Of a stretch of DNA of 64,000 nucleotides, positions 5,046 to 55,739 are shown piece after piece; positions within the stretch are counted from its first letter, which is position 1, and each line of letters opens with the position of its first letter. The position numbers and the translations under genes were made by a program. The notes under the pieces were generated by a model, which was not told the DNA's origin, searched no databases, and worked only from the letters and a program-made list of their open reading frames with translations. This DNA comes from Desulfocapsa sp. (GTDB lineage: Bacteria; Desulfobacterota; Desulfobulbia; Desulfobulbales; Desulfocapsaceae). The DNA is taken from contig JAESPV010000096.1 in assembly GCA_016765495.1 (NCBI GenBank), positions 1-64,000 on the forward strand. Direction: 5' to 3'.

Positions 5046-5816
5046 ATGAACAACCAAATTCCTACCAAAAGAGTTAAATCTGATGGTGATACACTCCTCA
5101 TACATTCGATATTTCATACCATCCAAGGGGAAGGTCCATTTACTGGCGTTCCCGCAGTATTCGTGCGTTTAGGGGGCTGTAACTTACAATGTCCTGGCTG
5201 TGATACGGAATATACCAAGGGTACCGAAACGATGGCAATGGGTACCATTGTTAATAATATTAATTATAAACTGGATGGTAATACCACTACTAAATTAATC
5301 GTTATTACGGGTGGTGAACCGTTTCGTCAGAATATATCTGAACTTTGTAACGTATTGAATATTCATGGCTTCGAAGTTCAAATAGAAACCAACGGGGTAA
5401 TGGCTCCTCAAGGTGATTTTGATACCTGGCCTACCATTATCTGTAGCCCGAAAACAACCAAGCTTAACCCCAAACTTTTACCACATATAACCGCGTTCAA
5501 GTATGTGGCTAATTGGCAGGAAGTAAACGAGCATGACGGCTTACCCCTAACCGCCTTGAATCATCAAGCTACTCCTCAGTTGGCTCGCCCACCTGAAGAC
5601 TTTGATGGTGATGTTTATTTGCAGCCGATGGATATGACTGAATACTATGATGAGGATATTGAAGGATCCTTAGAAGAGCAGTCTGTTTGGGCTGAGCAGC
5701 TAGATGGTCTTGTTGAGTCCCATAACCAAGCAAACCTTGATTTCGTTGTAAAAAGCTGTATGCAGCACGGCTATACAATTCAGCTGCAAATCCATAAACT
5801 TTTGAATTTAGAGTAG
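5046..5816 (+). CDS. queE: 7-carboxy-7-deazaguanine synthase, radical SAM
   Basis: QueE turns 6-carboxy-tetrahydropterin into 7-carboxy-7-deazaguanine. Seen here: HTIQGEG near residue 24, the radical-SAM cysteines C45, C49 and C52 (GGCNLQCPGCDTEYT) and the TGGEP motif that binds S-adenosylmethionine. The 256 residues slightly exceed usual bacterial QueE length; the excess is an acidic insert (MTEYYDEDIEGSLEE) toward the C-terminus. AGGAAA precedes the ATG. It opens the deazaguanine operon with queC, queD and folE. Confidence 0.93.
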   Translation: MNNQIPTKRVKSDGDTLLIHSIFHTIQGEGPFTGVPAVFVRLGGCNLQCPGCDTEYTKGTETMAMGTIVNNINYKLDGNTTTKLIVITGGEPFRQNISELCNVLNIHGFEVQIETNGVMAPQGDFDTWPTIICSPKTTKLNPKLLPHITAFKYVANWQEVNEHDGLPLTALNHQATPQLARPPEDFDGDVYLQPMDMTEYYDEDIEGSLEEQSVWAEQLDGLVESHNQANLDFVVKSCMQHGYTIQLQIHKLLNLE

Positions 5817-5819
5817 CCT

Positions 5820-6020
5820 ATGCGAACCTTAATTGTTCTATCCCATTCTGCATATGGTATCCATTTTAATGTTGATTGCTGTGATAAAGCCGATATAACA
5901 TATTGCCATGCTAGAAATTTTAAAGAAGTTAAAGATCAACGTTTCGATACTATTATTCACGTGGGTTCAAACCCATCCCTTAAAACCCGTAAACAGTTCC
6001 AAACTCTAATAGAGGAATAA
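5820..6020 (+). CDS. Small protein within the deazaguanine operon
   Basis: Sixty-six residues between queE and queC, 3 bases from one and 2 from the other. The sequence (LIVLSHSAYGIHFNVDCC ... IIHVGSNP) suggests a small alpha/beta fold, but I recognise no family. Its position makes a link to deazaguanine metabolism possible, not shown. Confidence 0.6.
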   Translation: MRTLIVLSHSAYGIHFNVDCCDKADITYCHARNFKEVKDQRFDTIIHVGSNPSLKTRKQFQTLIEE

Positions 6021-6022
6021 GT

Positions 6023-6697
6023 ATGAAAAATAAAACCGCCGTTGTTGTCTTGTCTGGCGGGCAAGACTCAGTTACCTGTCTAGGCCTAGCCTTAAAAGAA
6101 TATGATAAAGTTTATTGTATCTCTTTTGATTACGGGCAAAAACATTCCATCGAATTAACCCAAGCCCAGCTCATTTGCGATATGGTAAAAGTACCTTTAG
6201 TTATAATGACCATACCTGCACTTGCTCAGTTAGGGGATAGCGCCTTAATCGGTACCGATGGGGATGTTACAGAAGCTCACCCTTTTAATAAAGATCTACC
6301 AGCCAGTTTTGTTCCTAATCGTAATGCTTTGTTTTTAACAACAGCCCACGCTTATGCTCAGCAGGTAGGTGCAGGCACCATTATTACAGGTGTTTGTGAA
6401 ACTGATTATTCTGGTTACCCAGACTGCAGAGAAATCTTTATTGAGCACTTGCAGGCTACTTTGAACATTGGTTACCTAACCAATATTAATATTCGTACGC
6501 CTTTGATGCATCTTACCAAAGCCCAAACCTTTGCCCTAGCGGATGAAGTTGGTTTCTTGGATACGGTTATTGATCATTCACATACCTGCTATAACGGTAA
6601 ACGTGATGTGAAATGGATGTGGGGCAGAGGTTGTGGTAAATGCCCAGCCTGTGAACTTAGAGCAAAAGGTTGGCTCGAATTTTTGGAGAACAAATAA
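6023..6697 (+). CDS. queC: 7-cyano-7-deazaguanine (preQ0) synthase
   Basis: QueC uses ATP and ammonia to convert 7-carboxy-7-deazaguanine to preQ0. The PP-loop SGGQDS lies at 11-16; the zinc-binding cysteines C189, C204, C207 and C210 (GCGKCPAC) are complete. At 224 residues it is the ordinary stand-alone enzyme, with no fused amidotransferase domain as in the Gat-QueC of archaeosine-making phages. Start ATG follows GAGGAATAAGT. The stop overlaps queD by one base. Confidence 0.95.
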   Translation: MKNKTAVVVLSGGQDSVTCLGLALKEYDKVYCISFDYGQKHSIELTQAQLICDMVKVPLVIMTIPALAQLGDSALIGTDGDVTEAHPFNKDLPASFVPNRNALFLTTAHAYAQQVGAGTIITGVCETDYSGYPDCREIFIEHLQATLNIGYLTNINIRTPLMHLTKAQTFALADEVGFLDTVIDHSHTCYNGKRDVKWMWGRGCGKCPACELRAKGWLEFLENK

Positions 6698-7140
6698 TGG
6701 GAACAGTTACAGCAACCCGCTACCATGATTTCTGTGCAGGCCACAGAGTTCATGGGCAAGGCGGAAAATGCGAAAATCTTCACGGTCATAACTACCGTGT
6801 TCACTTTGATATCCGAGCATCTGAAGGTTTTGAAAATACAGATGATGTTGGTCGCGTTTTAGATTTTTCAGTAATCAAATCAATCCTTTGTGAATGGTTA
6901 GAAGAGAACTGGGATCATAAAATGATCATATGGGAAAAAGACCCAATGTTTGCCTATATTTATGATATAGATAAAACAGTAGTCAAAGTACCCTTTAACC
7001 CCACGGCTGAAAACATGGCTGGTTTCTTAGTTGAAATGGTTGCTCCTTATTTATTTAAAGAAGCTAAAATAGATTGTACTTTGATCTCTTGTACCATTGA
7101 CGAAACCCGTAAATGTTCCGCTACGTATAGTAAGGATTAG
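6697..7140 (+). CDS. queD: 6-carboxy-5,6,7,8-tetrahydropterin synthase
   Basis: QueD makes 6-carboxy-tetrahydropterin from dihydroneopterin triphosphate. Zinc ligands H16, H29 and H31 (CAGHRVHG; NLHGHNY) and the catalytic C25 are present, with a conserved WDHK motif further on. I start at ATG 6697: GGAG at 6685-6688 is correctly spaced and the ATG overlaps the queC stop. An in-frame TTG at 6670 would add nine residues inside queC and is unlikely. Length 147 is normal. Confidence 0.93.
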   Translation: MGTVTATRYHDFCAGHRVHGQGGKCENLHGHNYRVHFDIRASEGFENTDDVGRVLDFSVIKSILCEWLEENWDHKMIIWEKDPMFAYIYDIDKTVVKVPFNPTAENMAGFLVEMVAPYLFKEAKIDCTLISCTIDETRKCSATYSKD

Positions 7141-7142
7141 GT

Positions 7143-7742
7143 ATGAAGCAGTTTGAGAGAGAAGCGATTGCTGCTAATTTTGGTAGGATTCTAAAAATCA
7201 TTGAAAAAGTACCTGATTATAAAGATCTACGGCCTGGAATTCAAGAAACACCTATGCGTTTCGCCAAAGCTGTTGAACACTGGACCTCGGGCTATAACGT
7301 ATCACCTGCTGATATTATCAAGTTATTTGAAGATGGTGCGGATGGGTGCGATGAAATGGTTATAGTTAGGGATATACCTTTCTATAGCCAATGTGAACAT
7401 CATTTTGCCCCTTTCTTTGGTACTATAACTATTGCTTATATCCCTAACAAGAAAATTCTAGGGTTAAGTAAGTTTAGTCGTATAGCCGAAATCTTCTGCC
7501 GTAGACTACAAGTACAGGAACGAATCACTAATCAAATAGCGGAAGCTTTTATGGATGAAGCGATTGGTTCCCTTGGTGTAGGTGTTGTGGTTAAAGCCCG
7601 CCATATGTGCTGTGAATCAAGGGGTATTGCGAAGCAGGGTTCTTTTACTATTACCAGTGCGTTACGAGGGGTAATGAAAGAGCAACCCGAGACTAGGGCT
7701 GAATTTATGTCCTTAGTTAATAGCTTGCCTCCTAGTCTTTAA
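7143..7742 (+). CDS. folE: GTP cyclohydrolase I
   Basis: FolE opens GTP to dihydroneopterin triphosphate, the first step toward preQ0. Zinc and catalytic residues are visible: C84-E-H86-H87 (QCEHHFAPF), H154 and C156/C157 (ARHMCCESRG), with the signature GLSKFSRIAEIFCRRLQVQE. The 199 residues match the family. Carrying its own folE lets the phage feed deazaguanine synthesis without draining host folate control. AGGATTAGGT precedes the ATG. Confidence 0.95.
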   Translation: MKQFEREAIAANFGRILKIIEKVPDYKDLRPGIQETPMRFAKAVEHWTSGYNVSPADIIKLFEDGADGCDEMVIVRDIPFYSQCEHHFAPFFGTITIAYIPNKKILGLSKFSRIAEIFCRRLQVQERITNQIAEAFMDEAIGSLGVGVVVKARHMCCESRGIAKQGSFTITSALRGVMKEQPETRAEFMSLVNSLPPSL

Positions 7743-7755
7743 TGATGAAGTACTC

Positions 7756-7783
7756 TTGATTAATCACCCTATACTGGTATAAT
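7756..7783 (+). promoter_or_regulatory. Sigma70 promoter overlapping a terminator
   Basis: TTGATT (7756-7761), 16-base spacer, TATAAT (7778-7783). The -10 lies in the loop of the terminator hairpin below. New transcripts would start near 7790 and lack the left stem arm, so they escape that terminator. The same TTGATT-16-TATAAT arrangement recurs on the minus strand at 57673-57700. Confidence 0.55.
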
Positions 7784-7801
7784 TATTGGTATAGGGTTTT
7801 T
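7767..7801 (+). terminator. Rho-independent terminator after folE
   Basis: An 8-bp stem CCCTATAC/GTATAGGG (7767-7774 and 7789-7796) followed by TTTTT. It ends the queE-folE transcript while the embedded promoter restarts transcription for the dpdA block. Confidence 0.75.
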
Positions 7802-7822
7802 ATTATTAAGGAGAAAAAGATC

Positions 7823-8002
7823 ATGCCAACTTATATGATTGGGCAAAGAGTGATTTATCATAATGTAATCTGTAGAATCTGCATACCAGAAACAGCCCAT
7901 GAATTAACCGAGGATCGTATCTGGATAAATAATCCTGAAAAGGGATATAAGCACTGGGTAAGTAAAAGTAACATTAAACCATTACCAAACGGGCAACTAT
8001 AA
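7823..8002 (+). CDS. Small protein, unknown
   Basis: A 59-residue ORF beginning MPTYMIGQRVIY, with a good AAGGAG at 7808-7813. Its stop overlaps the next start (TAATG), so it is coupled to the PAPS-reductase-like gene. The IGQRVIYHNVICRI stretch suggests a small beta-barrel. No family is assigned. Confidence 0.65.
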   Translation: MPTYMIGQRVIYHNVICRICIPETAHELTEDRIWINNPEKGYKHWVSKSNIKPLPNGQL

Positions 8003-9054
8003 TGAAGAAGCAAATAGCAAGTATATCAGGTGGACGTACGTCTCACTACATGATAGATAAACTAATTGAAGTGTTCGGTAAAGAGAACGTAGATTTTATT
8101 TTTTGTAATACTGGTGCTGAGCATAAAGGGACTTACGATTTTGTGCAGGCTACCGCATTACATTTTGATATTGATATTGTTTGTTTGACTATGCACATGC
8201 CCCAAGAGGAAGGTATCGGGGCTAAATACGTAGTCGAGAATATAGCTAATATTACTGGGGATTATACTGCTTTCCGTGAATTAATGACTAAATACGGTAG
8301 GCCTTTTAATCCTGGTGGGAAATTCTGTACCGACCAGTTAAAGACCCAAATCTACCGTAAGTACTGTAATGATGCTTACGGGAAAGGTAATTATGTGACT
8401 TGGATAGGTTATAGAGATGAACCTAGAGACGCTAGTAGATCATGGGGGCATACGTTATCAGCCACCTTAACTAAATGGTTACATATAGAAAAAAGGGATC
8501 AAGGTGAATTCTATAAAAATTGCTCAATAAAACTTGCCGATTCAATCGGAGAGCTTTTTAACTATGTATCAGGATATGTGGTAGATCCTTTAGGGGAGTC
8601 GGGGTATAACCGAGTTAACAAAATCGTAGGTAAGGTTGTTAGGAACGACCAGATAGGGTACAGATTTCTTTTTGAGATTTCTGATTTCAATAAAGAAGAT
8701 ATACGGGCTTGGTGGCGTACCCAAAGTATTGATCTTGAAATACCTGATCACTGCGGTAACTGTGTGTTCTGTATCGAGAAAACGGAGAACCAACTAAGTT
8801 ACTTATGCCATACACAAAAACCTTTAGCAGACGAGTGGTTGGTGCAAGTAACTAACCCTGAAATCCCTATCAAAGGTAGGAAATTCAATGAAGAGGCAAT
8901 GTACCACACTGGTCCTATAAAGCTGACCTTTAAAGAAATATACGACAAGGCTTTCGAGCAGCCCCAAGAGTATTGGGAAAGTAGGGTTTCCCACGAAAAA
9001 AGACTAAGTCCTTGTGCTGAAGGTAGTTGTGACCTGTATGGCGGTGAGGATTAA
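8002..9054 (+). CDS. PP-loop PAPS-reductase-like protein coupled to DpdA
   Basis: 350 residues of the phosphoadenosine phosphosulfate reductase superfamily: PP-loop SGGRTS at 9-14 and a typical FCNTGAEHKGTYDF segment after the second strand. A later cysteine group (HCGNCVFCIEKT ... YLCH) may bind zinc or a cluster. The family adenylates substrates and includes sulfur-transfer enzymes such as DndC. Real PAPS reductase activity is unlikely in a phage. The gene overlaps dpdA by one base, so a role in tailoring or loading the modified base is a reasonable inference. Two other functions, nucleotide metabolism and anti-restriction by a different chemistry, remain open. Confidence 0.75.
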   Translation: MKKQIASISGGRTSHYMIDKLIEVFGKENVDFIFCNTGAEHKGTYDFVQATALHFDIDIVCLTMHMPQEEGIGAKYVVENIANITGDYTAFRELMTKYGRPFNPGGKFCTDQLKTQIYRKYCNDAYGKGNYVTWIGYRDEPRDASRSWGHTLSATLTKWLHIEKRDQGEFYKNCSIKLADSIGELFNYVSGYVVDPLGESGYNRVNKIVGKVVRNDQIGYRFLFEISDFNKEDIRAWWRTQSIDLEIPDHCGNCVFCIEKTENQLSYLCHTQKPLADEWLVQVTNPEIPIKGRKFNEEAMYHTGPIKLTFKEIYDKAFEQPQEYWESRVSHEKRLSPCAEGSCDLYGGED

Positions 9055-9971
9055 TGCAAATCTATATGGCCGGTATTTATACCTCTAACTTCGATCTACA
9101 TGGTAGGCTTTACCGCCGCCTCAGTGATAACGAAAGAGCCCAACGGGACAGTATCCCCCATATGTTAGAATCATACCATTATGTATGTAAACAGTCCGCC
9201 GTAGATAAGATGCGCCGAGATGAAGCAAAGGTATTTCTGGATTCAGGAGCCTTCTCGGCTTGGTCAAAAGGGGTAGAGATTGATCTACCTGCCTACTGCC
9301 GATATATACAAGATAACGCCGATATCATTCGGGTAGAAGACGATGCAGTTGTGGCCTCTGTACTAGATAGTATTGGTGACGATCTCGGAACGTATAAGAA
9401 CCAGATGAGAATGGAGAAGTTAGGGGTGCGGCCTCTACCTTGTTTCCATTACGGGGAAGATCCTAGATACCTCCAGTTGTATGCAGCCAATTATTCCTAT
9501 ATTACCTTGGGTGGAATGGTAGCTCAATCCACAAAAGATCTTCTTATCTGGCTCGACGAAATCTGGGAGAAGTACTTAACTGATGGGGCTGGTAGGCCGA
9601 TTACCAAGGTTCACGCGTTTGGTGTTACTACTCCAATCCTAATGAAGAAGTATCCTTGGTTCAGCGTTGATTCGTCCTCATGGGTTCAGGTAGCGGCTAA
9701 CGGTTCCATTCTATTTAACGGTAAGGCCATGGCCATATCTGCCGAGAGCCCAAACCGAAAGGTTCAGAACCAGCATTACGATACATTTACAGATCTTCAA
9801 AGGGAAGCGATTGATAAACGTTTAACTTCCCAAGGTTACACCACTGAAGACCTAATGCACAAATACCTTTCCCGCTGGATTTATAACATAAATGCATATG
9901 TAGAAATGCACAAAGAGTATCCACCATTTGAGGATGCAATCTTTAAACAAACTCAATTCGGATTATTCTAA
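9054..9971 (+). CDS. dpdA: DpdA-type DNA 7-deazaguanine transglycosylase
   Basis: 305 residues related to tRNA-guanine transglycosylases, in the form used by phages to swap guanine for preQ0 in DNA. Landmarks: D63 in FLDSGAFSAW, D105 in SVLDSIGD, the glycine pair in YITLGGMV (about 149-156), HAFGVTTP (187-194) and D206 in VDSSSW, the likely nucleophile region. Co-occurrence with folE, queD, queE and queC in one block strongly supports the role. Assignment follows the published link between phage DpdA and 7-deazaguanine DNA. It is coupled to both neighbours by TAATG overlaps. Confidence 0.85.
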   Translation: MQIYMAGIYTSNFDLHGRLYRRLSDNERAQRDSIPHMLESYHYVCKQSAVDKMRRDEAKVFLDSGAFSAWSKGVEIDLPAYCRYIQDNADIIRVEDDAVVASVLDSIGDDLGTYKNQMRMEKLGVRPLPCFHYGEDPRYLQLYAANYSYITLGGMVAQSTKDLLIWLDEIWEKYLTDGAGRPITKVHAFGVTTPILMKKYPWFSVDSSSWVQVAANGSILFNGKAMAISAESPNRKVQNQHYDTFTDLQREAIDKRLTSQGYTTEDLMHKYLSRWIYNINAYVEMHKEYPPFEDAIFKQTQFGLF

Positions 9972-11678: not shown

Positions 11679-13702
11679 TGGCTAGAGATGATAGTATAGG
11701 CCTATTCTGGGAAGATCACGCTGCTGAAAAGGGTAGAAACCGTATTGCGGCTATTATGCCCGATATACCTGAGACTGGCTGGGAACCCCCTAAAACATTA
11801 CCGAACTTATCCAATTCCAAAGTTATCTCTTTAGATGTTGAAACTTGGGATCCTGGCTTGAAGGATCATGGACCTGGATGGTCAAGGGGCGAAGGCCACC
11901 TTGTTGGGGTTTCTATTGGTGATGATAAAGGTGGGTGCTGGTACTTCCCTATGAGGCACGAGATAGAAGCTGAAGGAAATTGGGATGCCGAAGTTATTCT
12001 AGTGTGGTTAAGGAATACCCTTTGTAATCCTAAACAGCCCAAAGTTGGGGCAAACATAATTTATGATATTGGTTGGCTCTGGCATGAGGGTGTTCATGTT
12101 CAAGGTCCTCTTTTTGATGTCCAGTACGCTGAGGCTTTGCTTAATGAAGCTGCTCCTGTAGCCCTAGAAAGCCTAGCCCAAAAATACCTTGGTGAAGGTA
12201 AAGAATCTAATTTGCTGTACCAGTGGTGCTCAGACTACTATGGTGGTCCAATTACTGGTGACCAGCGTAAAAATATTTATCGTGCCCCTCCAAGATTGGT
12301 TGGTCCTTATGCGGAGAGTGATGCCGACTTACCCTTACGCATAATAGCGAAGCAGTGGCCGCTACTCGAGAAAGAAGGTCTTATGGATTTGTTCATAATG
12401 GAATGTGAACTGATATACCTTTATCTGGAAATGCGTTTTGAAGGGGTTACGGTAAATGTTCCTTATGCAGAAGAACTCAGAGATACCTTAGAGAAGAAGG
12501 AAGGCGAGTTTCAAAGTGAGCTAGACAGATTGGCTGGCTTCAAGGTCAACACTAACTCAGGTGAACAGCTGGCTAAGGTATTTGATTCAGAAGGCCTCAC
12601 CTATAACTTTACCAAACCTAGTAAGACCTACCCTCAAGGCAAACCAAGTTTTACTAAGGATTTCATTGAAGCGGTTAATCACCCAGTTGGGGAGTTAATA
12701 AGGGAAATTAGGTTACATGCTAAACTCCGTGGTACGTTCGTGGAGAGCTATATACTTAATTCTCATGTAGGTGGCAAAGTCCATGGCCAATTCCATCCTT
12801 TACGCGGGGAAACTTACGGTACACGTAGTGGTAGGTATAGCAGTTCTAACCCTAACCTGCAAAATATTCCATCTAGGCACCCAATACTAGCCCCAATGAT
12901 TCGAGGGCTATTTATACCTGATATTGATCACGTGGCTTGGCGTAAGTACGATTACAGTCAAATTGAATATAGGTTCATGGTTCATTTTGCCGTTGGCCAA
13001 GCAGGGCAGAACGCTCGGGATATGTTTAATGCAGATCCTGACTTAGATTACCATAACTTCGCTCAAAAGCTTGTATTTGATAAAACAGGTATGAAGATTG
13101 AACGTAAGTCAATTAAGAAAGTTAACTTCGGGTTGATCTATGGTATGGGTAAGAAAACCTTAGGTGCTGGCCTTGGCCTAAGTAAGAAACAGACTGCGGA
13201 GCTATTTGCTGCGTACTTTGAAGCGATGGATTTCGCTAAGCCCACTATGGATGCAGCAATGCAGGAAGCTCAGGATACAGGAGTCATAACCACAATATTA
13301 GGTCGTAAGTCGCGCTTTGATTTGTGGGAACCTGCAGGCTGGACTAAGAAAGGTTTCCCCCTACCAATTGATCAAGCTATCCTTAGATACGGTAATATTA
13401 AACGAGCAGAGACCCATAAGGCACTGAACAGAAGGTTACAGGGTTCCTCAGCCGATCAGATGAAAGTCGCCTTACATAAATGTTATAAAGACGGTATTTA
13501 TGATGATATAGGGGTACCAAGATTAATCATACATGATGAATCTAATCATTCAGATAGAGGCGGTTGTAGTGAGGGTTTTAGGGAAATGCAGTACATATTT
13601 GAAACAGCTATACCGTTAAAGGTTCCCGTTAAATTTGGATTAGATTATGGCAAGGACTGGGGTCATGCAATTGAGTGTAAAGATGATAAAGATCTCCCGT
13701 AA
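11678..13702 (+). CDS. Family A DNA polymerase with 3'-5' exonuclease
   Basis: 674 residues. Proofreading domain: D53/E55 (SLDVETWDP), the Exo II region around 124-132 (GANIIYDIGW) and the Exo III YAESDADL at 211-218. Polymerase domain: motif A DYSQIE at 425-430, motif B from K477 to Y488 (KS.KKVNFGLIYG) and motif C HDE close to the C-terminus. There is no 5'-3' exonuclease domain, as usual for phage replicases. It is probably the main replicative polymerase with the clamp-like protein upstream. Confidence 0.95.
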   Translation: MARDDSIGLFWEDHAAEKGRNRIAAIMPDIPETGWEPPKTLPNLSNSKVISLDVETWDPGLKDHGPGWSRGEGHLVGVSIGDDKGGCWYFPMRHEIEAEGNWDAEVILVWLRNTLCNPKQPKVGANIIYDIGWLWHEGVHVQGPLFDVQYAEALLNEAAPVALESLAQKYLGEGKESNLLYQWCSDYYGGPITGDQRKNIYRAPPRLVGPYAESDADLPLRIIAKQWPLLEKEGLMDLFIMECELIYLYLEMRFEGVTVNVPYAEELRDTLEKKEGEFQSELDRLAGFKVNTNSGEQLAKVFDSEGLTYNFTKPSKTYPQGKPSFTKDFIEAVNHPVGELIREIRLHAKLRGTFVESYILNSHVGGKVHGQFHPLRGETYGTRSGRYSSSNPNLQNIPSRHPILAPMIRGLFIPDIDHVAWRKYDYSQIEYRFMVHFAVGQAGQNARDMFNADPDLDYHNFAQKLVFDKTGMKIERKSIKKVNFGLIYGMGKKTLGAGLGLSKKQTAELFAAYFEAMDFAKPTMDAAMQEAQDTGVITTILGRKSRFDLWEPAGWTKKGFPLPIDQAILRYGNIKRAETHKALNRRLQGSSADQMKVALHKCYKDGIYDDIGVPRLIIHDESNHSDRGGCSEGFREMQYIFETAIPLKVPVKFGLDYGKDWGHAIECKDDKDLP

Positions 13703-14165
13703 AGAAGCCAAGGCGCAAGGCCTGAAGCACTATTTTACAGGTATCCAATGCATTAATGGTCATACCACTTTTAGGTTTACGGCTAATAGTACTTGTGGTG
13801 AATGCTTACTTGCCACGCATAAAAACTATCTTAAAACCGAGCATGGTAAGGCAGTTCAGAAAGCCTATGATCGAGGCGAAAAAGCAAAACAAGCTCATAG
13901 AGTTCGCAAGAAAGATCCTAGGGTCAAAAAGATGAATAGGCGTGACGGGGCTAAACGCAGAGCGGCTAAGCTTGAAAGAACACCTAGCTGGGTTGATCAT
14001 GAAGCCATAAGTAGAATTTACTTATTCTGTCCAAATGGTTATGAAGTGGATCATATTATCCCGTTACAGGGTAAATTGGTATCAGGATTACATGTTCCAG
14101 ATAATCTGCAATACCTTACCTGTACCGAGAATAGGATTAAATATAACGCATTTGAAATAGAGTAA
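13683..14165 (+). CDS. HNH endonuclease
   Basis: The C-terminal half carries an HNH-type core: EVDHIIPLQGK, SGLH and NLQYLT. The N-terminal KAQGLKHYFTG ... C.NGH ... CGEC region is a common zinc-like element in free-standing phage HNH proteins. I choose ATG 13683, inside the last codons of the polymerase; an ATG at 13647 would overlap further. The 160-residue product is probably a selfish homing enzyme that nicks the polymerase region of rival phages. Confidence 0.8.
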   Translation: MIKISRKEAKAQGLKHYFTGIQCINGHTTFRFTANSTCGECLLATHKNYLKTEHGKAVQKAYDRGEKAKQAHRVRKKDPRVKKMNRRDGAKRRAAKLERTPSWVDHEAISRIYLFCPNGYEVDHIIPLQGKLVSGLHVPDNLQYLTCTENRIKYNAFEIE

Positions 14166-39789: not shown

Positions 39790-40593
39790 TTAGTAGTTAA
39801 AGGTGCTCTGATACCAAGCCCATTGCTGGGCTATGTTATTTGCCACCTCAGCTGGTAGGACATCAGACCAGTCAGACGGTTTAACTGGTCTGATAGTTGA
39901 TCCTACTTTATGAGACCCATAAATACCATAAACGGAGTCATCTTCATACACTTCTTTATGAATATTTTCAAAATCATGCTCAATAGAAGGTTCTCCGATA
40001 TAGTCGTATATTCTATCCATGGCAGCTTGTGGTGAGGTACATAAATCTTCGTATCTGACCCAATGTATTTTTTCCCCGATACCGCGCAACCATGTATCTT
40101 GGGTACGTTGTAAGGCTAACCCAATAGGCTGTGTATTCAACCAGTAGTCAGCTCTTTGCATAACGGTCATACCTTCCATTTTGGCTGGGTTATCCGTACC
40201 TGAAGGTCTGTGACGATTCGCTCTGTACACTCGCTCCATCGAAGCAATGATCGAGCGAATATCTCGTACACAACAGATCATCTTAGGATCAGGATTCCAT
40301 TGGGCAACCCATTCATAGTAGTGCGCCCAACCTCGGTTCTTATCACAAATAATTGGTCGGTCAGTGATGGGGGCATAATAGCCCTCGGCCATGCTTTTGC
40401 ACATAGAGATGAAAGCATCTTGTTGCTGTTCAGGTTCCTGACTCTTTACTTCTGGGAGGTCATAGTTGCCTCTAGCGGCGAACTGATACTCCAGTAAAGG
40501 GGAAGTCGCAGAACCGTATATACGTGGGTTCTGGTGTAATAAAACTTGTATTAATTCGCTACCAGATCGGGGCATAGAGCTATTAAATATCAT
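39790..40593 (-). CDS. PAPS-dependent sulfotransferase
   Basis: 267 residues with both PAPS-binding signatures: the 5'-phosphosulfate loop SMPRSGSELIQVLL (about 5-18) and the 3'-phosphate motif CVRDIRSIIASM near 111-122. The C-terminal helices (YEDLCTSPQAAMDRI) also match the family. It transfers sulfate from PAPS to an unknown acceptor, possibly a tyrosine, sugar or repeat protein side chain. It overlaps the repeat fibre-like gene by one base inside the virion operon, so the acceptor may be a virion protein. Host PAPS would be the donor. Confidence 0.85.
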   Translation of the reverse strand: MIFNSSMPRSGSELIQVLLHQNPRIYGSATSPLLEYQFAARGNYDLPEVKSQEPEQQQDAFISMCKSMAEGYYAPITDRPIICDKNRGWAHYYEWVAQWNPDPKMICCVRDIRSIIASMERVYRANRHRPSGTDNPAKMEGMTVMQRADYWLNTQPIGLALQRTQDTWLRGIGEKIHWVRYEDLCTSPQAAMDRIYDYIGEPSIEHDFENIHKEVYEDDSVYGIYGSHKVGSTIRPVKPSDWSDVLPAEVANNIAQQWAWYQSTFNY

Positions 40594-41348
40594 TATGTTG
40601 CTGTTCCTAAACTAAGGGTTTTAATTGTACCGGCCACATTTATATCTATAAGTATAACGTCGCCGTTACGTCTGATTGAAAATGCTTCTCTCATTAATGT
40701 TAAGTCTGCTTCCGAACCTAAAGTAGCGCCACCATCTAACAAAGCTGTCGCAGTATTTATCATACTGACTGCTGCATAACCAGTTGTCGCAGTTGGAGCG
40801 TGAATTCTGATTGCTCCTGCGCGAACTGTTGTTCCTGACCAATAACCTATCTCAGTAACGTTATTGATATTGACTTGAACAAAATGACCAAATGATGAAG
40901 AGCTATTTCCGCTTGCTGTGGTGATATGTCCGAAAGCTGATGAGTTATCTCCGCCTGCAGTATTGTAATATCCGAAAGCCGAGGCATGACTTCCAATAGA
41001 AGTATTGCTACGTCCGAAAGCAGAACTATAGCCTCCACTAGAAGTATTGGTATGTCCGAACGCTGACGAGGTGTACTCACTAGAAGTATTATTATACCCA
41101 AATGCAGAAGAGCTACCTCCGATAGAATTGTTTCTATATCCGAAAGCAGATGAAGTATATCCATCCGCAGTATTGTTATATCCGAAAGAAGGAGAGTAGT
41201 TTCCACTCGCTGTGTTGTTACATCCGAAAGAAGAAGAGTAGTTTCCACTCGCTGTGTTGTTATATCCGAACGCAGAACCTTTATCTCCATCCGCAGTATT
41301 TTTACGACCAACGGTTAAAGAATTATTAACCTTGCTAAAGACTTTCAC
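40593..41348 (-). CDS. YadA-head-like repeat protein, fibre candidate
   Basis: 251 residues. Residues about 20-160 are ten 14-residue repeats like SSAFGYNNTASGNY, as in the left-handed beta-roll of YadA and Hep/Hag adhesin heads. The C-terminal 90 residues look like a trimerisation or capping region. GTG 41348 is the start, preceded by GGGAGAAAGG. The repeats expose many S, T, N and Y, possible targets for the coupled sulfotransferase. Likely a receptor or capsid fibre. Confidence 0.7.
   Translation of the reverse strand: MKVFSKVNNSLTVGRKNTADGDKGSAFGYNNTASGNYSSSFGCNNTASGNYSPSFGYNNTADGYTSSAFGYRNNSIGGSSSAFGYNNTSSEYTSSAFGHTNTSSGGYSSAFGRSNTSIGSHASAFGYYNTAGGDNSSAFGHITTASGNSSSSFGHFVQVNINNVTEIGYWSGTTVRAGAIRIHAPTATTGYAAVSMINTATALLDGGATLGSEADLTLMREAFSIRRNGDVILIDINVAGTIKTLSLGTAT
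40880..41300 (-). repeat. 42-bp coding tandem repeats (about 10 copies)
   Basis: The DNA under the YadA-like repeats is a tandem series of 42-bp units; the pair at about 41160-41270 is nearly identical. Copy number change or recombination is likely. Confidence 0.7.
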
Positions 41349-42280: not shown

Positions 42281-42454
42281 TTAATTAACACGCCTAAAAT
42301 CCGTCTGGACTTGGGCATTAGCATAGTTCTTCTGTTCAAGGGTTAAAGTATCCCAAGCTTCCTGCGGAACGTCACGGGGATTATCTATACGTGGCATATT
42401 GTTAGCCATCATTACAATCCCGTACCCTTTTACTTTACCTTTAGTTGTCAACAT
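42281..42454 (-). CDS. Small hypothetical protein after portal
   Basis: 57 residues (MLTTKGKVKGYGIVMMANNMPR...). GAGGAAATAACG before ATG 42454 decides the start; the longer ORF reading into portal is unlikely. It overlaps the portal stop by 14 bases. No family recognised. Confidence 0.55.
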   Translation of the reverse strand: MLTTKGKVKGYGIVMMANNMPRIDNPRDVPQEAWDTLTLEQKNYANAQVQTDFRRVN

Positions 42455-43880
42455 CGTTATTTCCTCGGCCGTTGGCAATATCTTCTTTATCATCAGTGTT
42501 GTTACCTGCATTGGTATCAGCACCGCCCTTGCCTTGTATTAAGACAAATTCTTCTTTAGTCATCTCTGGCTGCTTTGGTAAACCAAGCATCTCACGTAGA
42601 ACGTTAATGGCTGGATCATTCATTGATAACTTACCACCTGCCGCTGCCATGTCTTTAAGTGCTTGGGTAATTTGGGTAATATCCCTATGCTGAGCAGCTT
42701 CAGTATTAAATGTTGGCATCATATTTTCTGGCCATTTATTTAATTCCCATAAGCGTTGGATCATGTCACGTTGGTAAGTGTCCGCTAATTCGCTTAACGT
42801 ACTATCCACAATTAACGCGAAGTTCAAAGACTTATCAGAACTTAATGCATGTGAGCCTGTGGTTTGTTCCCCTAGCAATAATCCGTCAACACCTAATGTT
42901 CTAGCTATCTCTCTATTCACCCGTTCAATGGCAATAGCTACCTCTGCAAATGAAGTAGCGCTACCTTTTAATAAATCTACATCCCATTGGAAAACTGTAC
43001 TAGGTGTCCCAGTTTCATCTTCGCTTTGGTAAGTAATACTATCTAGTAATAAGCCTAGAGCGGGGTTCTTAATATGGTCAGTAATAAAAGACTTAATAGG
43101 AGCAATAGCATCATCCATATTTTGCTGTGTTATTAACCCAGTATCTACGGCTTCTGACAACGCAGCAAATGGTGCTCTACCTACTGGGATACCCCGTAAG
43201 TCAGACTCAAACCCATAACCTTCCAACTGCTCATAACGCTGCAATCTTTTGGCTGGTCCTACTATATGGCGAAATAGGCCAAGACCTTCAGGTGAATCAT
43301 TAATAGAATCGTCTACAATATAAACTAATTTTTTACGGGGTAGGTATATGTCATCACCCAGTAGTGGATCTAATTGGGTTACGCCTAGAACTTTACCTGC
43401 TTTGTTCACATCCCACTTATTAATGGTTATCTGCGGCCGAGGGGCAATATCCTCGAATAATAACATACCGTCTTTTCTAACCGCAGTCCATTCTTGGATA
43501 CTGTAACCATAGAAGCGATACATTGCCGCTCTACGAATTACCCTTGACCAAGAAGTATCCATACTGGTAAGTTGCTTGGTGATAATATCTGCAAACCGTT
43601 TTGCTTCATCGGATTCATCCGCGGGGGTTACTTTCCATCTAGCTTTAGCTACTAGGTTTAAGAAATACCGAGTACCAGCTGCCACAATAGAAACGTTAGC
43701 TAAAAGCTCGCTATAAGTTCTATATTTCTCAGGTCCAATTAATGCGGCATTCTTTTCATCCTCACTAATAAAGCCACCAAAAACAATTGTGCCTGGCACC
43801 CCTTTAGTTTTAGTAGGTGGAGCACTTTTATTTTGTCCACCGAAAGCATCTTGAAATTTCTGTATAATACCCATGATCAT
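42441..43880 (-). CDS. Portal protein
   Basis: 479 residues with a DUF935-like portal pattern: ALIGPEKYRTYSELLANVSI, RYFLNLVAKARWKVTPA, MYRFYGYSIQEWTAV and KLVYIVDDS. The last 60 residues are an acidic/asparagine-rich tail. The start may be the third codon (ATG 43874) as GGA lies 5 bases ahead of it; I list the first ATG. The portal ring takes DNA from the terminase downstream of TerL in the operon. Confidence 0.88.
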   Translation of the reverse strand: MIMGIIQKFQDAFGGQNKSAPPTKTKGVPGTIVFGGFISEDEKNAALIGPEKYRTYSELLANVSIVAAGTRYFLNLVAKARWKVTPADESDEAKRFADIITKQLTSMDTSWSRVIRRAAMYRFYGYSIQEWTAVRKDGMLLFEDIAPRPQITINKWDVNKAGKVLGVTQLDPLLGDDIYLPRKKLVYIVDDSINDSPEGLGLFRHIVGPAKRLQRYEQLEGYGFESDLRGIPVGRAPFAALSEAVDTGLITQQNMDDAIAPIKSFITDHIKNPALGLLLDSITYQSEDETGTPSTVFQWDVDLLKGSATSFAEVAIAIERVNREIARTLGVDGLLLGEQTTGSHALSSDKSLNFALIVDSTLSELADTYQRDMIQRLWELNKWPENMMPTFNTEAAQHRDITQITQALKDMAAAGGKLSMNDPAINVLREMLGLPKQPEMTKEEFVLIQGKGGADTNAGNNTDDKEDIANGRGNNDVDN

Positions 43881-43935: not shown

Positions 43936-46521
43936 TCACTGCGTTATTACTACGGGGGCTGCCCCGATCAATCTGCGTCTTTTACGTAACAGACAAGCGT
44001 AGGCTCTTGTTGCTGCATCCACCTGATCTTTAAACTCCCCATTCGGGAACAAGGCCGCTTCGTTTACAAACCCGTTGTTCCAAGGTCCGCGAACTAGATA
44101 TACGTTACCAGATTCGCATTGAGCCGCTAATGGCATTGCCCTTACTTCCTTAGATCCCGTTTCAGGACTGAACGTAAAGGTATAACCATGTAACAATTTA
44201 CTTATGGCTAATTTCTGTGCTTTACCCGCTTGGCCAGGATCTTGTGGAAAATCCTGCATTACCCCATGACCATCCATTTGGGCGTTAACCTTAATCATTT
44301 TCTCAACACCACTAGGACTTGCTTGTTTGCGGTCTATGTCTTCTATATAGATATTACCTTCTATAATTGACATCTTACAACCGACCGTAAAGGCCGCATT
44401 TTTATTGGTCTTGGCCTCGGTTGCCGCGAGATCCCATCCACGGGCTCTTTTGTGAGTATGCCCATCTGGAACTCTATCAACGTAACCAAAATCACTCTTC
44501 TGGAACATACCACCACCCCGAGGGGCTGGTCTTTGTTGAAGCTGACCGGCGATGGCATATGAACCACCCCATGAGCTAAGTGCCTTTTTCAATTCTTCCA
44601 TTGATTTCTTAGGGAACCGTTCAGGCCATAACAACTCACCATCTTCAGTCCTAGGATCAACTAGGTATTTTTTAATTTTGCTATCTGGATCAGGAGTCCA
44701 TGATTTATGATGCTCATTCCAAGATACTTTAACTAATTTAGCCCCTTGAATATACTTGGGCTTGACACAGGAGTAACATGCACGCTCAGGTTCAAATTCC
44801 ATGGGTAACATTAAGTGCTCATACCCTAACTCTTCCGCTAGGATAAGACCAGATACATCTCTTTCATGAACCCGCTGCATGATAACCACAATAGCGGACT
44901 CATCAACTTTATTCAATCGCGTGGGTAACGTTTCTGAGAACCAGCGTAAGGTGTCTTCTCTGAAGGCTTCTGAATCCGCTTTCTTAATTGAATGCGGGTC
45001 ATCCAGTATAAGCCTATCCCCACGATAACCAGTGAGACCAGAACCAACAGAAGAAGCCATTCGCCAACCCGTTTTAGTATTGGCATAATATGTTTTTGCA
45101 TTAACATCCCCTTTGAATTCTACGTTCTGCCCCCAATTCCTCTGGTACCACTCACTTACCATAAGATCGCGGGAACGAACACTATCCCTTATGGCTAATG
45201 GTTGCTCATGGGCGGCTAGGATATACCTGTAGTGTGGTAGATTACGAGGACCCCATTCCCAAGCTGACCAAAATACCGAGGTAGTCATACTGTTTCTAGT
45301 AAGGATAAATTCCTTTGTGGCCAAGTACTTACGGCCTTCTACCTGTATGCAGCTCACTATCTGATCAGGTAACCTTCGAACCTCTTTTATGTATCTTCTT
45401 TGGGCTTTAACCCCAGCTGGTTTACACCTAGCCTGCTTACGAGGAAGATTAAACACTTTCATACCGGCAAGGCATTTAAAGGAAACGTGGTATACCTCTT
45501 TATACCCTTTAGTACCCTTATTAGGGGTGTAGTGCCTAGTATTTGCTTGCATTCCTAAAGAATGTGCTAGTTCACTAACCCCATCAGCAAGATTCTTATT
45601 AGTATTACAGAAAGTTATGGTACCATTATTTTCACAGGTACCATCTGAATCCAATAACCCTCTTAATAACTCAAGGCGCTGTTCAATGGAACCAATAAGA
45701 TATTCTTCTGGTATATGTTTGTTATTAAGTATGTTTAAGGTACGTAGGTTAGTTCTTAGTCCTTCAAAACGAATATAATAGAAATCCGTATTGTAAGCAT
45801 TACTTTTATCTAAGGCCAATTGCTCCTTACATACTATACCTCTATAATCTCTCACAAGGTGCTCACAGTCGGCAGCGTCGGAACAAACCTTACCTTCATT
45901 ACTAAAACCATCACCCAACCAATAACCTAATACGTATGGGTCTATCAACAAATCTTGCTCAGGCATATTAACTGGATCATGCATCCTGACACAATCAGGA
46001 CGGGTTCCAGTCACAAGATCTTTGGTTCCCACTATCTCAGTTGTTCTAGGTCCATGAGTCGGATTGTGGCGAAGGACTTCCCATTCGTGCCCATGCCCTG
46101 CAATAACCGATGAACCATTCTTAAATATAACCTCGTAGCTTTCCTGATAGTTATGAGGGGTAATCCCTTCAACCATTTTAGGTTGACCGTCTTGGCCATA
46201 TACATAATCCCCTACCACTAGGTCCCCGTGTTTCTTCCACCCATTGGTAGTTAGCGTTAAGGTGTTGATTTCTAAGGGTTTTGTACAACCTGGCGGCACA
46301 TTTATTAATAGGCGCCTAATTTGACCTTCAGTTACTGCTTGGAGGTGTTCACATATAGCTTCGACCGCCCAACCCGTTACAAATGGTTGGCCAGGCTCTA
46401 ATGCTTCCCAACCGTTCCGTATAAAATCTATAAGGTTGCGTTCAGACTCGAGCTTCTTAATAGCCTCTAAGGCATCCAGAGGATTGGCCATGGCATGTTG
46501 GAGTTGTCGATTACTAACCAT
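43936..46521 (-). CDS. Terminase large subunit interrupted by an intein
   Basis: 861 codons. The ATPase P-loop is split: PPGCTK (76-81) ends the first extein and SMTTSVFWSAWEWG resumes at 411, so splicing rebuilds PPGCTKS. The spliced enzyme would be 532 residues, normal for TerL. Walker B is LILDDP; the nuclease domain shows RGWDLAATEAK and FKDQVDAATRAY with the expected aspartates. Without splicing the ATPase should be dead. It overlaps the small subunit gene by 8 bases. Confidence 0.93.
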   Translation of the reverse strand: MVSNRQLQHAMANPLDALEAIKKLESERNLIDFIRNGWEALEPGQPFVTGWAVEAICEHLQAVTEGQIRRLLINVPPGCTKPLEINTLTLTTNGWKKHGDLVVGDYVYGQDGQPKMVEGITPHNYQESYEVIFKNGSSVIAGHGHEWEVLRHNPTHGPRTTEIVGTKDLVTGTRPDCVRMHDPVNMPEQDLLIDPYVLGYWLGDGFSNEGKVCSDAADCEHLVRDYRGIVCKEQLALDKSNAYNTDFYYIRFEGLRTNLRTLNILNNKHIPEEYLIGSIEQRLELLRGLLDSDGTCENNGTITFCNTNKNLADGVSELAHSLGMQANTRHYTPNKGTKGYKEVYHVSFKCLAGMKVFNLPRKQARCKPAGVKAQRRYIKEVRRLPDQIVSCIQVEGRKYLATKEFILTRNSMTTSVFWSAWEWGPRNLPHYRYILAAHEQPLAIRDSVRSRDLMVSEWYQRNWGQNVEFKGDVNAKTYYANTKTGWRMASSVGSGLTGYRGDRLILDDPHSIKKADSEAFREDTLRWFSETLPTRLNKVDESAIVVIMQRVHERDVSGLILAEELGYEHLMLPMEFEPERACYSCVKPKYIQGAKLVKVSWNEHHKSWTPDPDSKIKKYLVDPRTEDGELLWPERFPKKSMEELKKALSSWGGSYAIAGQLQQRPAPRGGGMFQKSDFGYVDRVPDGHTHKRARGWDLAATEAKTNKNAAFTVGCKMSIIEGNIYIEDIDRKQASPSGVEKMIKVNAQMDGHGVMQDFPQDPGQAGKAQKLAISKLLHGYTFTFSPETGSKEVRAMPLAAQCESGNVYLVRGPWNNGFVNEAALFPNGEFKDQVDAATRAYACLLRKRRRLIGAAPVVITQ
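45292..46278 (-). other. Class 3-like intein with LAGLIDADG endonuclease
   Basis: Codons 82-410 of terL, 329 residues from P82 to N410, followed by S411. Class 3 marks are all visible: no Cys/Ser at position 1, Trp147 two residues after block B His145 (GHGHEW), Cys391 in block F (VSCIQVEGRKYLA) and Thr408 in block G (FILTRN). The usual penultimate His is Arg409. The middle has both LAGLIDADG helices, LGYWLGDGF (198-206) and LLRGLLDSDG (285-294), so it probably still homes. Confidence 0.8.
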
Positions 46522-47227
46522 TGATTACTTTCTCCTCGGCTTTTTTCTTAGCTTCGATAGCTTTTATAGCTTGGGATTCAACTAACTTCTTAAACATAGC
46601 AAGTTCGTCTTTGTCAAATAGTTCTAGATCAAAGGTATTATTGACTACAGTGTTCTGACTGTTATCAATATTGGTTTGATTGGCAGTAGACGGTAAGCGG
46701 TTTGTATTTAAAGAAGCTATATGAATTCGACCCAATAGTTCTAGGCAGCGAGTATCGTATTCGTGTAGTTCGAATATCTTGTCTCGGTTCTTACCGCCAA
46801 GCACTTGTTTCTTGTAACCGTGAACCCCTCGGCGAATTAGTTCCATTTGTAAAAGGGATCTAAAATACTCATGGGCTTCTTCAACTGCTACAGCAAAAAT
46901 AGGATCTTCGCGTTTATGCTTACAAACGGTGGAACGACTTACACCTGCGCAGCTAGCTGAAAAAGCATGCTGGCCGCATACGGCTAGTTGTCTTAGATAA
47001 GCCTTTTTACCTTTATCATTAAAAGTAATCCCTGTATACCCGTTTTGCTTATGTTTAGGTTTTGCTGTCCATAAGGTAGTAAACCCACGGGCGAACATTT
47101 CTTCTTCAATTTTAACTAAGGGATCAGTTTCTGCTAGATGGGCATCACCATCTACTTCCACCATGTTCCTGTGGTCTTTACGAGATCTTTCACTTACTTC
47201 TGATTTCTCGGATGGTAGTTTTGCCAT
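46514..47227 (-). CDS. Terminase small subunit
   Basis: 237 residues with a helix-turn-helix in the middle (RQLAVCGQHAFSASCAGVSR) and helical C-terminus ending in a lysine-rich tail. GGAG five bases before ATG 47227 decides the start, five residues inside the longer frame. It sits directly before terL, recognising the packaging site. DNA site unknown. Confidence 0.75.
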   Translation of the reverse strand: MAKLPSEKSEVSERSRKDHRNMVEVDGDAHLAETDPLVKIEEEMFARGFTTLWTAKPKHKQNGYTGITFNDKGKKAYLRQLAVCGQHAFSASCAGVSRSTVCKHKREDPIFAVAVEEAHEYFRSLLQMELIRRGVHGYKKQVLGGKNRDKIFELHEYDTRCLELLGRIHIASLNTNRLPSTANQTNIDNSQNTVVNNTFDLELFDKDELAMFKKLVESQAIKAIEAKKKAEEKVING

Positions 47228-47237
47228 GTAGTCTCCG

Positions 47238-47285
47238 TGCATGGATAATATGGAGTGTTAGGAGGATTATCCACAATACCATGCA
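47238..47285. promoter_or_regulatory. Inverted repeat before terS, packaging or operator site candidate
   Basis: TGCATGGATAAT (47238-47249) is mirrored by ATTAT (47266-47270) and CCATGCA (47279-47285), interrupted by eight bases. The symmetry and place just upstream of the small terminase gene suit a protein-binding site. Nothing shows which protein. Confidence 0.3.
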
Positions 47286-55256: not shown

Positions 55257-55739
55257 TCAAGTTGGTGCCTTAGTCCATTTTTTATGGAACTTAGCTTTAC
55301 CTGAGTGAACAGAACTCATATGACCTGCTCTAAGATTATTTGTTCTACAGAATTCTCTTAGGTTATAAATAGAAACAGTAAACCCTTGTGGATTAATAAA
55401 TACGTAACTCTTAGGTTTAGTACCTTTAATATTTTCCTTACTACTAGCAAACTTGCAGGTATCAGGACTGTAAATTTTATTGCCAGGAATTCGCAAGTCT
55501 TTATCTAAATGGTAACCCTCAACGTAATTCTCTTCGTACCATTTAGCAAAGATTTGGTAGTTATGCCATTCCACACAAACAGAACATCCTTTATAGGTCG
55601 GTTGCCTTTCCTGAACTTTCTTATTATAACAACGGGCGATCATTCCAGTCCATGCTCTATGGGATCTAGTCTTTCTAGGATAAGGACCTACTCCAAGGAA
55701 CCCAATACCATTAACTGTTTTTCGATTAGTATTTAACAT
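55257..55739 (-). CDS. Homing endonuclease-like protein
   Basis: 160 residues matching a phage family recognised by HRAWTGMIARCYNKKV, CSVCVEWHNYQIFAKWYEEN, LDKDLRIPGNKIYSPDTC and a C-terminal DNA-binding-like end (LREFCRTNNL). Related proteins are annotated as HNH or AP2-type homing endonucleases. Its lone position next to AT-rich DNA fits a selfish element. Confidence 0.6.
   Translation of the reverse strand: MLNTNRKTVNGIGFLGVGPYPRKTRSHRAWTGMIARCYNKKVQERQPTYKGCSVCVEWHNYQIFAKWYEENYVEGYHLDKDLRIPGNKIYSPDTCKFASSKENIKGTKPKSYVFINPQGFTVSIYNLREFCRTNNLRAGHMSSVHSGKAKFHKKWTKAPT

Follow-up and report, generated by a model that had tools for sequence, protein, structure and literature searches.

Class 3 inteins are defined by the absence of an N-terminal nucleophile together with the residues Trp B:12, Cys F:4 and Thr G:5 (PMC3196547, PMC5050341). 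In the mycobacterial intein MchDnaB1 these are Trp67, Cys124 and Thr143, and His65 completes a protease-like triad (PMC7664689). One survey counts 1,701 class 3 inteins, 82.5% of them with LAGLIDADG endonuclease motifs. Two histidines, at C2:13 in block F and at C1:6 (G:6), normally assist cyclization of the terminal Asn, yet the intein AceL NrdHF lacks both and splices within a few minutes, with an Arg at B:11 compensating in part (PMC7891396).

Intein insertion in the phage terminase large subunit (TerL) is known from mycobacteriophages, where one study names TerL1-a to -e, TerL6-f and Pham3880-g. TerL1-a sits between the invariant P-loop Lys and the next hydroxyl residue, a classic P-loop insertion; the study handles TerL1-c, -d and -e as class 3 inteins and shows endonuclease activity for TerL1-b and -c (PMC5050341). 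Both the site (TerL1-a) and class 3 inteins in TerL had thus been described already in mycobacteriophages, a point missed by an earlier note on the DNA considered here.

That DNA, here called the window, is a stretch of 64,000 nucleotides, bases 1-64000 of a 68,678-base contig in a bacterial assembly whose 108 contigs total 3.8 Mb (completeness 99.96, contamination 7.28). Its terL gene very probably carries, in the Walker A loop of a tailed-phage TerL, a class 3 intein that splices itself out and contains a LAGLIDADG homing endonuclease (Table 1).

Table 1. Coordinates of the interrupted terminase gene, its parts and its neighbors in the window.
Feature	Position	Strand	Evidence
terminase small subunit gene, directly upstream of terL	46514..47242	-	phrog_4044 2.4e-17; no Pfam match
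terL, precursor of phage terminase large subunit, 861 aa	43936..46521	-	PF17289, phrog_38
N-extein, residues 1-81, ends ...VPPGCTK (first part of Walker A)	46279..46521	-	TerL alignment; end of phrog_38 match at 46279 (model position 318)
class 3 intein, residues 82-410, 329 aa	45292..46278	-	residue check, alignments of relatives, intein profile 9.8e-109
LAGLIDADG homing endonuclease domain, intein residues about 101-289 (limits approximate, chosen by us)	45412..45978	-	PF14528, PF05204, PI-SceI alignment, model helices
C-extein, residues 411-861 and stop, starts SMTTSVFW; rest of Walker A, ATPase, RNase H-like nuclease	43936..45291	-	TerL alignment; phrog_38 resumes at 45291, position 319; PF17289
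portal protein gene, directly downstream of terL	42441..43880	-	PF06074 2.9e-22; phrog_113 5.7e-53

The interrupted terminase gene

Genes for the tail, head, packaging and replication of a tailed phage lie on the contig, on which a search for exact terminal repeats of 15-300 bases found none. The terL frame has no internal stop, and its product matches the Terminase_6C nuclease domain (PF17289, 5e-12), TIGR01630 (8e-16) and phrog_38 (2.8e-68). It combines an ATPase, its P-loop recognized through alignment, with an RNase H-like nuclease, and the gene lies between those of the small subunit and the portal protein. Searches of the assembly with the TerL protein and with a terminase profile found no further TerL, and one with the intein profile found no second intein of this kind. 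Elsewhere in the window, 40593-41348 (-) encodes a protein of short FGYNNTASG-like repeats, where the DNA matches itself at a shift, and the start of the product of the adjoining 39790-40593 looks sulfotransferase-like by eye.

In an alignment of the full protein with 18 TerL relatives, the columns of K81 and S411 are separated by 327-348 residues in 11 of the 18 and by none in the other seven (S0112, L003, L004, L005, L006, L008 and L011). Shewanella phage S0112 reads LLINVPPGCTK and then SMTTSVFWPAWEW at this site, and the window TerL reads LLINVPPGCTK and then SMTTSVFWSAWEW, the flanking residues agreeing on both sides. The phrog_38 profile breaks at the same point, with edges exact to the base: a match over 46279-46485 ends at model position 318, and the next begins at 45291 with position 319. 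The profile has one more match, a weak one (E 2.6e-4, positions 152-207), which covers 46117-46284, mostly within the insert. The intein profile (A1) matches 45292-46275 with the E value given in Table 1. Because the TerL alignment and the profile edges coincide there, the insertion site, as read from the sequence, separates the invariant Lys of Walker A from its Ser; Lys stands at -1 in 164 of 207 intein relatives among the matches listed.

Taking out P82-N410, which is in frame, leaves 532 residues. The extent that the earlier note had given to the insert (P82-N410, 45292-46278, with 532 residues left) is borne out by the residue check, the TerL alignment and the profile edges. Its view of Walker A as interrupted, and restored when the insert is removed, agrees with the seven insert-free TerLs, which have no residue at the site, and with the step from 318 to 319 in phrog_38. 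With its P-loop split, the precursor would not be expected to work as an ATPase. Active TerL, and hence packaging, should then depend on splicing, which is fair to infer because the insert parts Lys from Ser and no other TerL was found in the assembly.

Splicing residues, class and fold

Numbered from its own first residue, the intein has P1, H64 (B:10), W66 (B:12), C310 (F:4), T327 (G:5), R328 (G:6) and N329 (G:7), which in the precursor are P82, H145, W147, C391, T408, R409 and N410, followed by S411 at +1. The residue check returned P82, W147, C391, T408, R409 and N410 just as the earlier note had read them, with H145 and S411 also in place. The general marks of an intein are there (His B:10 at H145, the C-terminal Asn at N410 and a Ser at +1, S411), and Pro82 at position 1 offers no Cys, Ser or Thr nucleophile. 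Among the 207 relatives in the matches listed, Ala holds position 1 in 133 and Pro in 24; Ser was aligned there in 2 of 131.

Relatives were aligned with MAFFT in sets of 53, 131 and 207, the largest made up of 53 from viral contigs and phage records, 78 from genomes and 76 further viral ones. The 53 remained from 82 ORFs once 19 partial ones were left out, nine identical pairs were merged and the window's own twin, in one of these pairs, was left out. The genome set was drawn from the best 80 of at least 581 relatives, less one partial locus and one duplicate, and the second viral set from the best 80 of at least 583, less four duplicates. His B:10, Trp, Cys, Thr and the final Asn are found in 53, 51, 52, 53 and 53 of the first set and in all 78 of the GTDB genome set. 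Over the 207 relatives among the matches listed the counts are 207, 205, 206, 207 and 207, a conservation of the triplet that is partly built in, since it was through their similarity to the window intein that the relatives were selected.

The searches also retrieved class 1 inteins, which are without Trp at B:12. One of them (L056) is counted in the 207 and begins with Cys once its boundary is shifted by one. Also counted is the intein in the TerL of Vibrio phage JA-1 (L085, 1798-2811), which has Ala1, Cys F:4 and Thr G:5 and no Trp at B:12. Without these two, all three residues stand in 205 of 205 among the matches listed. Five phage inteins of weaker similarity (L092, L093, L094, L095 and L096) served as controls. 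Four are class 1, starting with Cys and having no Trp at B:12 (L092, L094, L095, L096); L094 and L096 are near-identical and show their initial Cys after a boundary shift by one, and L095 also has a Cys at F:4. The fifth intended control, in the TerL of Vibrio phage 1.245.O (L093), has Ala1, Cys F:4 and Thr G:5 without the Trp and is class 3-like. L085 and L093 would both be class 3-like inteins of Schitoviridae terminases, minus the W of the triplet.

A quick tree of 98 of 137 rows, with every second genome row left out, places the window intein among rows that have the triplet and away from the class 1 controls, although no starred branch holds it. Its neighbor is L018 (support 91, without bootstrap). 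Two rows with the triplet (L041 and L084) group with class 1 rows with support 90, and the classes are not cleanly separated. The alignment to relatives leaves the class 3 triplet where the earlier note had put it, at W147, C391 and T408 (205, 206 and 207 of the 207 among the matches listed). In an alignment to solved class 3 inteins, of the kind that the note had proposed as a check, W66 falls over the Trp of 6bs8.

The predicted fold is in keeping with this. The AlphaFold2 model, built from an alignment (A2) of 32 rows, the window and IMG/VR rows only, has a mean pLDDT of 89.9 and a pTM of 0.89. Foldseek against the PDB gives PI-SceI first (1ef0, E 3.7e-20, TM 0.76 by query), and also MchDnaB1 (6riy, E 5.3e-7) and the class 3 intein MsmDnaB of M. 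smegmatis (6bs8, E 1.2e-6). A sequence search of the PDB has the class 3 DnaB inteins 6bs8, 6rix and 6riy among its best matches, covering the N-terminal splicing part, and PI-SceI matching the endonuclease part. As modeled, the fold thus resembles both PI-SceI and the class 3 DnaB inteins.

In the endonuclease, PF14528 (LAGLIDADG_3, 2.2e-9) and PF05204 (Hom_end, 5.2e-7) both cover the second half of the domain, and the PI-SceI alignment covers intein residues 114-281. The last Asp of each LAGLIDADG helix, D123 in block C and D212 in block E, is aligned with D218 and D326 of PI-SceI (positions counted by us), which we take to be its catalytic residues. Asp stands in these columns in 199 and 204 of the 207 relatives among the matches listed. 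The two helices occupy model residues 119-128 and 203-217, that is, intein residues 114-123 and 198-212. Both are present as helices in the model and both Asp are aligned with PI-SceI, which upholds the statement of the earlier note that the LAGLIDADG helices look intact.

If splicing follows the class 3 pathway of the literature, Cys391, with His145 and Thr408 activating it and Trp147 packing against it, would attack the Lys81-Pro82 bond to give a branched thioester in block F. The N-extein would then be transferred to Ser411, and Asn410 would cyclize, without the two usual histidines, to release the intein. An acyl shift would finally join Lys81 to Ser411, yielding the 532-residue TerL with a complete P-loop.

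Relatives and mobility

Homing would start with cleavage by the endonuclease of terL alleles that lack the intein, at the conserved P-loop codons, and recombination would then spread the intein. Within the phage collection searched, the TerL closest to that of the window comes from S0112; it has 68% extein identity and is intein-free, and so are L003-L006, with 44-47% extein identity to the window TerL. The 11 intein-bearing TerLs in the alignment are distant, with extein identities of 12-24%. In 10 of these 11 the intein, at 29-37% identity, is closer to that of the window than the extein, at 12-22%, a pattern that a mobile element would be expected to give; in the eleventh (L089, CcrPW) the relation is reversed (intein 18.6% vs extein 23.6%). 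A Cas4 exonuclease and a PhoH protein are among the other host proteins in which relatives of the intein lie. With the closest TerLs intein-free, the intein-bearing ones distant and relatives in other proteins, the pattern is consistent with horizontal acquisition through homing.

At the DNA level, no empty allele from a close relative was found: around the site S0112 agrees at 43 of 60 bases, and among 96 genomes related to the bacterial assembly only one matched, the window's own. The empty site in the TerL of S0112 makes the mobility of the intein directly testable.

A second assembly of nearly the same phage (L002, IMG/VR 3300033049_000079) is 98.5% identical over 6860 bases and has no difference from the window in the 987 nt of the intein. 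Its TerL, nominally 100% identical, differs by one residue, in the C-extein. With no substitution inside the intein, a dN/dS test of selection on it through this pair was ruled out. Of the 106 differences over the 6860 bases, 96 fall in two tracts outside the intein (2218-2683 and 3737-4334 of L002), which correspond to the 3' part of the window terL and to the portal gene, the remainder being nearly identical. The two tracts are probably a recombination mosaic.

Composition was considered as a clue to the age of the insert and did not settle it: the intein has 40.9% GC, near the average for stretches of 987 bases across the window (41.4%, sd 3.0), yet its exteins are richer, at 45.7 and 45.1%. 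Within the intein, the endonuclease part has 37.5% and the splicing part 45.2%.

Two further endonuclease genes in the window, of the endonuclease VII and HNH types (13647-14165 (+), phrog_1035, and 55257-55739 (-), phrog_2081), are possibly free-standing homing endonucleases. A queuosine-type gene set at 5046-9971 (+) encodes a radical SAM protein, QueC, PTPS, GTP cyclohydrolase I, a PAPS-reductase-like protein and a queuine tRNA-ribosyltransferase-like protein (phrog_887). These genes suggest 7-deazaguanine modification of the phage DNA, which, if true, might affect the cutting of modified targets by the intein endonuclease.

Missing histidines and comparison with known inteins

The stretch from Cys391 to Asn410, CIQVEGRKYLATKEFILTRN, contains no His. 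The earlier note was right that the penultimate residue is Arg409 and not His, as the residue check confirms for a position (G:6) that is His in 197 of 207 relatives among the matches listed; it missed that the block F His is absent as well. When any His among residues 6-12 from Cys F:4 is taken as the block F His, 118 of the 207 relatives among the matches listed have both, 79 only that at G:6, 9 only that in block F and one (L238) neither. This single loss of both compares with 3.9 expected (P 0.05), a weak sign, within the same listed matches, that the two losses exclude each other. Arg at G:6 recurs in one of the 207 among the matches listed, from Gordonia phage YungMoney. The absence of both assisting histidines would be the one uncommon trait of this intein, as far as the alignments tell.

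With both missing, splicing could be slow or impaired. The residue that compensates in part in AceL NrdHF, the Arg at B:11, is a Glu in the window intein, and for that reason Arg409 would be the likeliest helper of Asn cyclization; failing that, the step may be slower. A tentative and rather doubtful extension is that class 3 splicing is completed with Arg at G:6 in place of both histidines, possibly slowly enough to delay active TerL and time packaging.

Could the intein then be a packaging timer, with slow Asn cyclization withholding active TerL until late infection? Such conditional splicing concerns the role of the intein and is compatible with its being a self-splicing class 3 element. 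The split Walker A and the missing histidines speak for it, as do the regulatory roles proposed for inteins at ATPase active sites, but the five representative mycobacteriophage terminase inteins tested spliced quickly (PMC5050341), and class 3 inteins bearing LAGLIDADG motifs have been suggested to be constitutive splicers and selfish elements (PMC7891396). We consider this role unlikely.

The same absence of both histidines might be read as degeneration, leaving a class 3 intein that is decayed or impaired in splicing, a TerL that stays unspliced and a phage that either is defective or relies on another terminase. Published inteins do include a class 3 pseudogene, Arth_1007, but that one has lost Cys F:4 and His B:10 (PMC3196547), whereas the class-defining residues here are all intact. 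The frame is open over 861 codons, both LAGLIDADG Asp are present, the model is confident, and the second phage assembly carries the intein unchanged within its 6860 bases of 98.5% identity. Additionally, AceL NrdHF splices within minutes without the same two histidines (PMC7891396), and the other terminase that such a phage might need was not found in the assembly. Decay is therefore quite improbable. A class 2-like route, in which the first nucleophile is not Cys391 but Ser411, acting directly on the N-terminal junction, could in principle be open to inteins with the class 3 signature (PMC5222942), but it is hardly credible when, of 207 relatives among the matches listed, 205 keep W, 206 C and all T, and with splicing abolished by Cys F:4 to Ala in published class 3 inteins (PMC5222942, PMC7891396).

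A self-splicing class 3 intein remains the reading of choice, and its likenesses to described inteins are distributed over several systems. With PI-SceI (the VMA intein; 1ef0, 1lws) it shares the Hint and LAGLIDADG architecture, with both Asp aligned. PI-SceI, unlike the window intein, is class 1 and its host is the yeast V-ATPase. The class 3 mycobacterial DnaB inteins 6bs8, 6rix and 6riy differ in being chains of 139-146 residues without an endonuclease and in having a helicase host. Trp67, His65, Cys124 and Thr143 of MchDnaB1 correspond to W66, H64, C310 and T327, although MchDnaB1 starts with Ala and the window intein with Pro (PMC7664689).

AceL NrdHF also has neither the C2:13 nor the C1:6 His, but it is split, has Met for Trp and Gly, not Arg, at C1:6, and carries at B:11 the Arg that is Glu in the window (PMC7891396). 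The TerL intein of Gordonia phage YungMoney (MZ150791, L090) shares both Arg G:6 and the P-loop site between K and S; unlike the window intein it keeps the block F His, and it is not the nearest branch in the quick tree.

The mycobacteriophage TerL inteins are likewise found in the TerL ATPase domain, and the window site is that of TerL1-a, whose class is not stated in the available text (PMC5050341). The window differs from them in its phage group and terminase family (Terminase_6C), and in having Arg at G:6 and no block F His; against the mycobacteriophage TerLs L075, L077 and L078, its extein identity is 12-16% and its intein identity 33-37%. Apart from the missing histidines the window intein is ordinary, since 82.5% of the 1,701 class 3 inteins carry LAGLIDADG motifs (PMC7891396). 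It contributes a well-supported class 3 intein in a TerL from beyond the mycobacteriophages and, beside AceL NrdHF, a useful second case for how class 3 inteins cyclize Asn without both assisting histidines.
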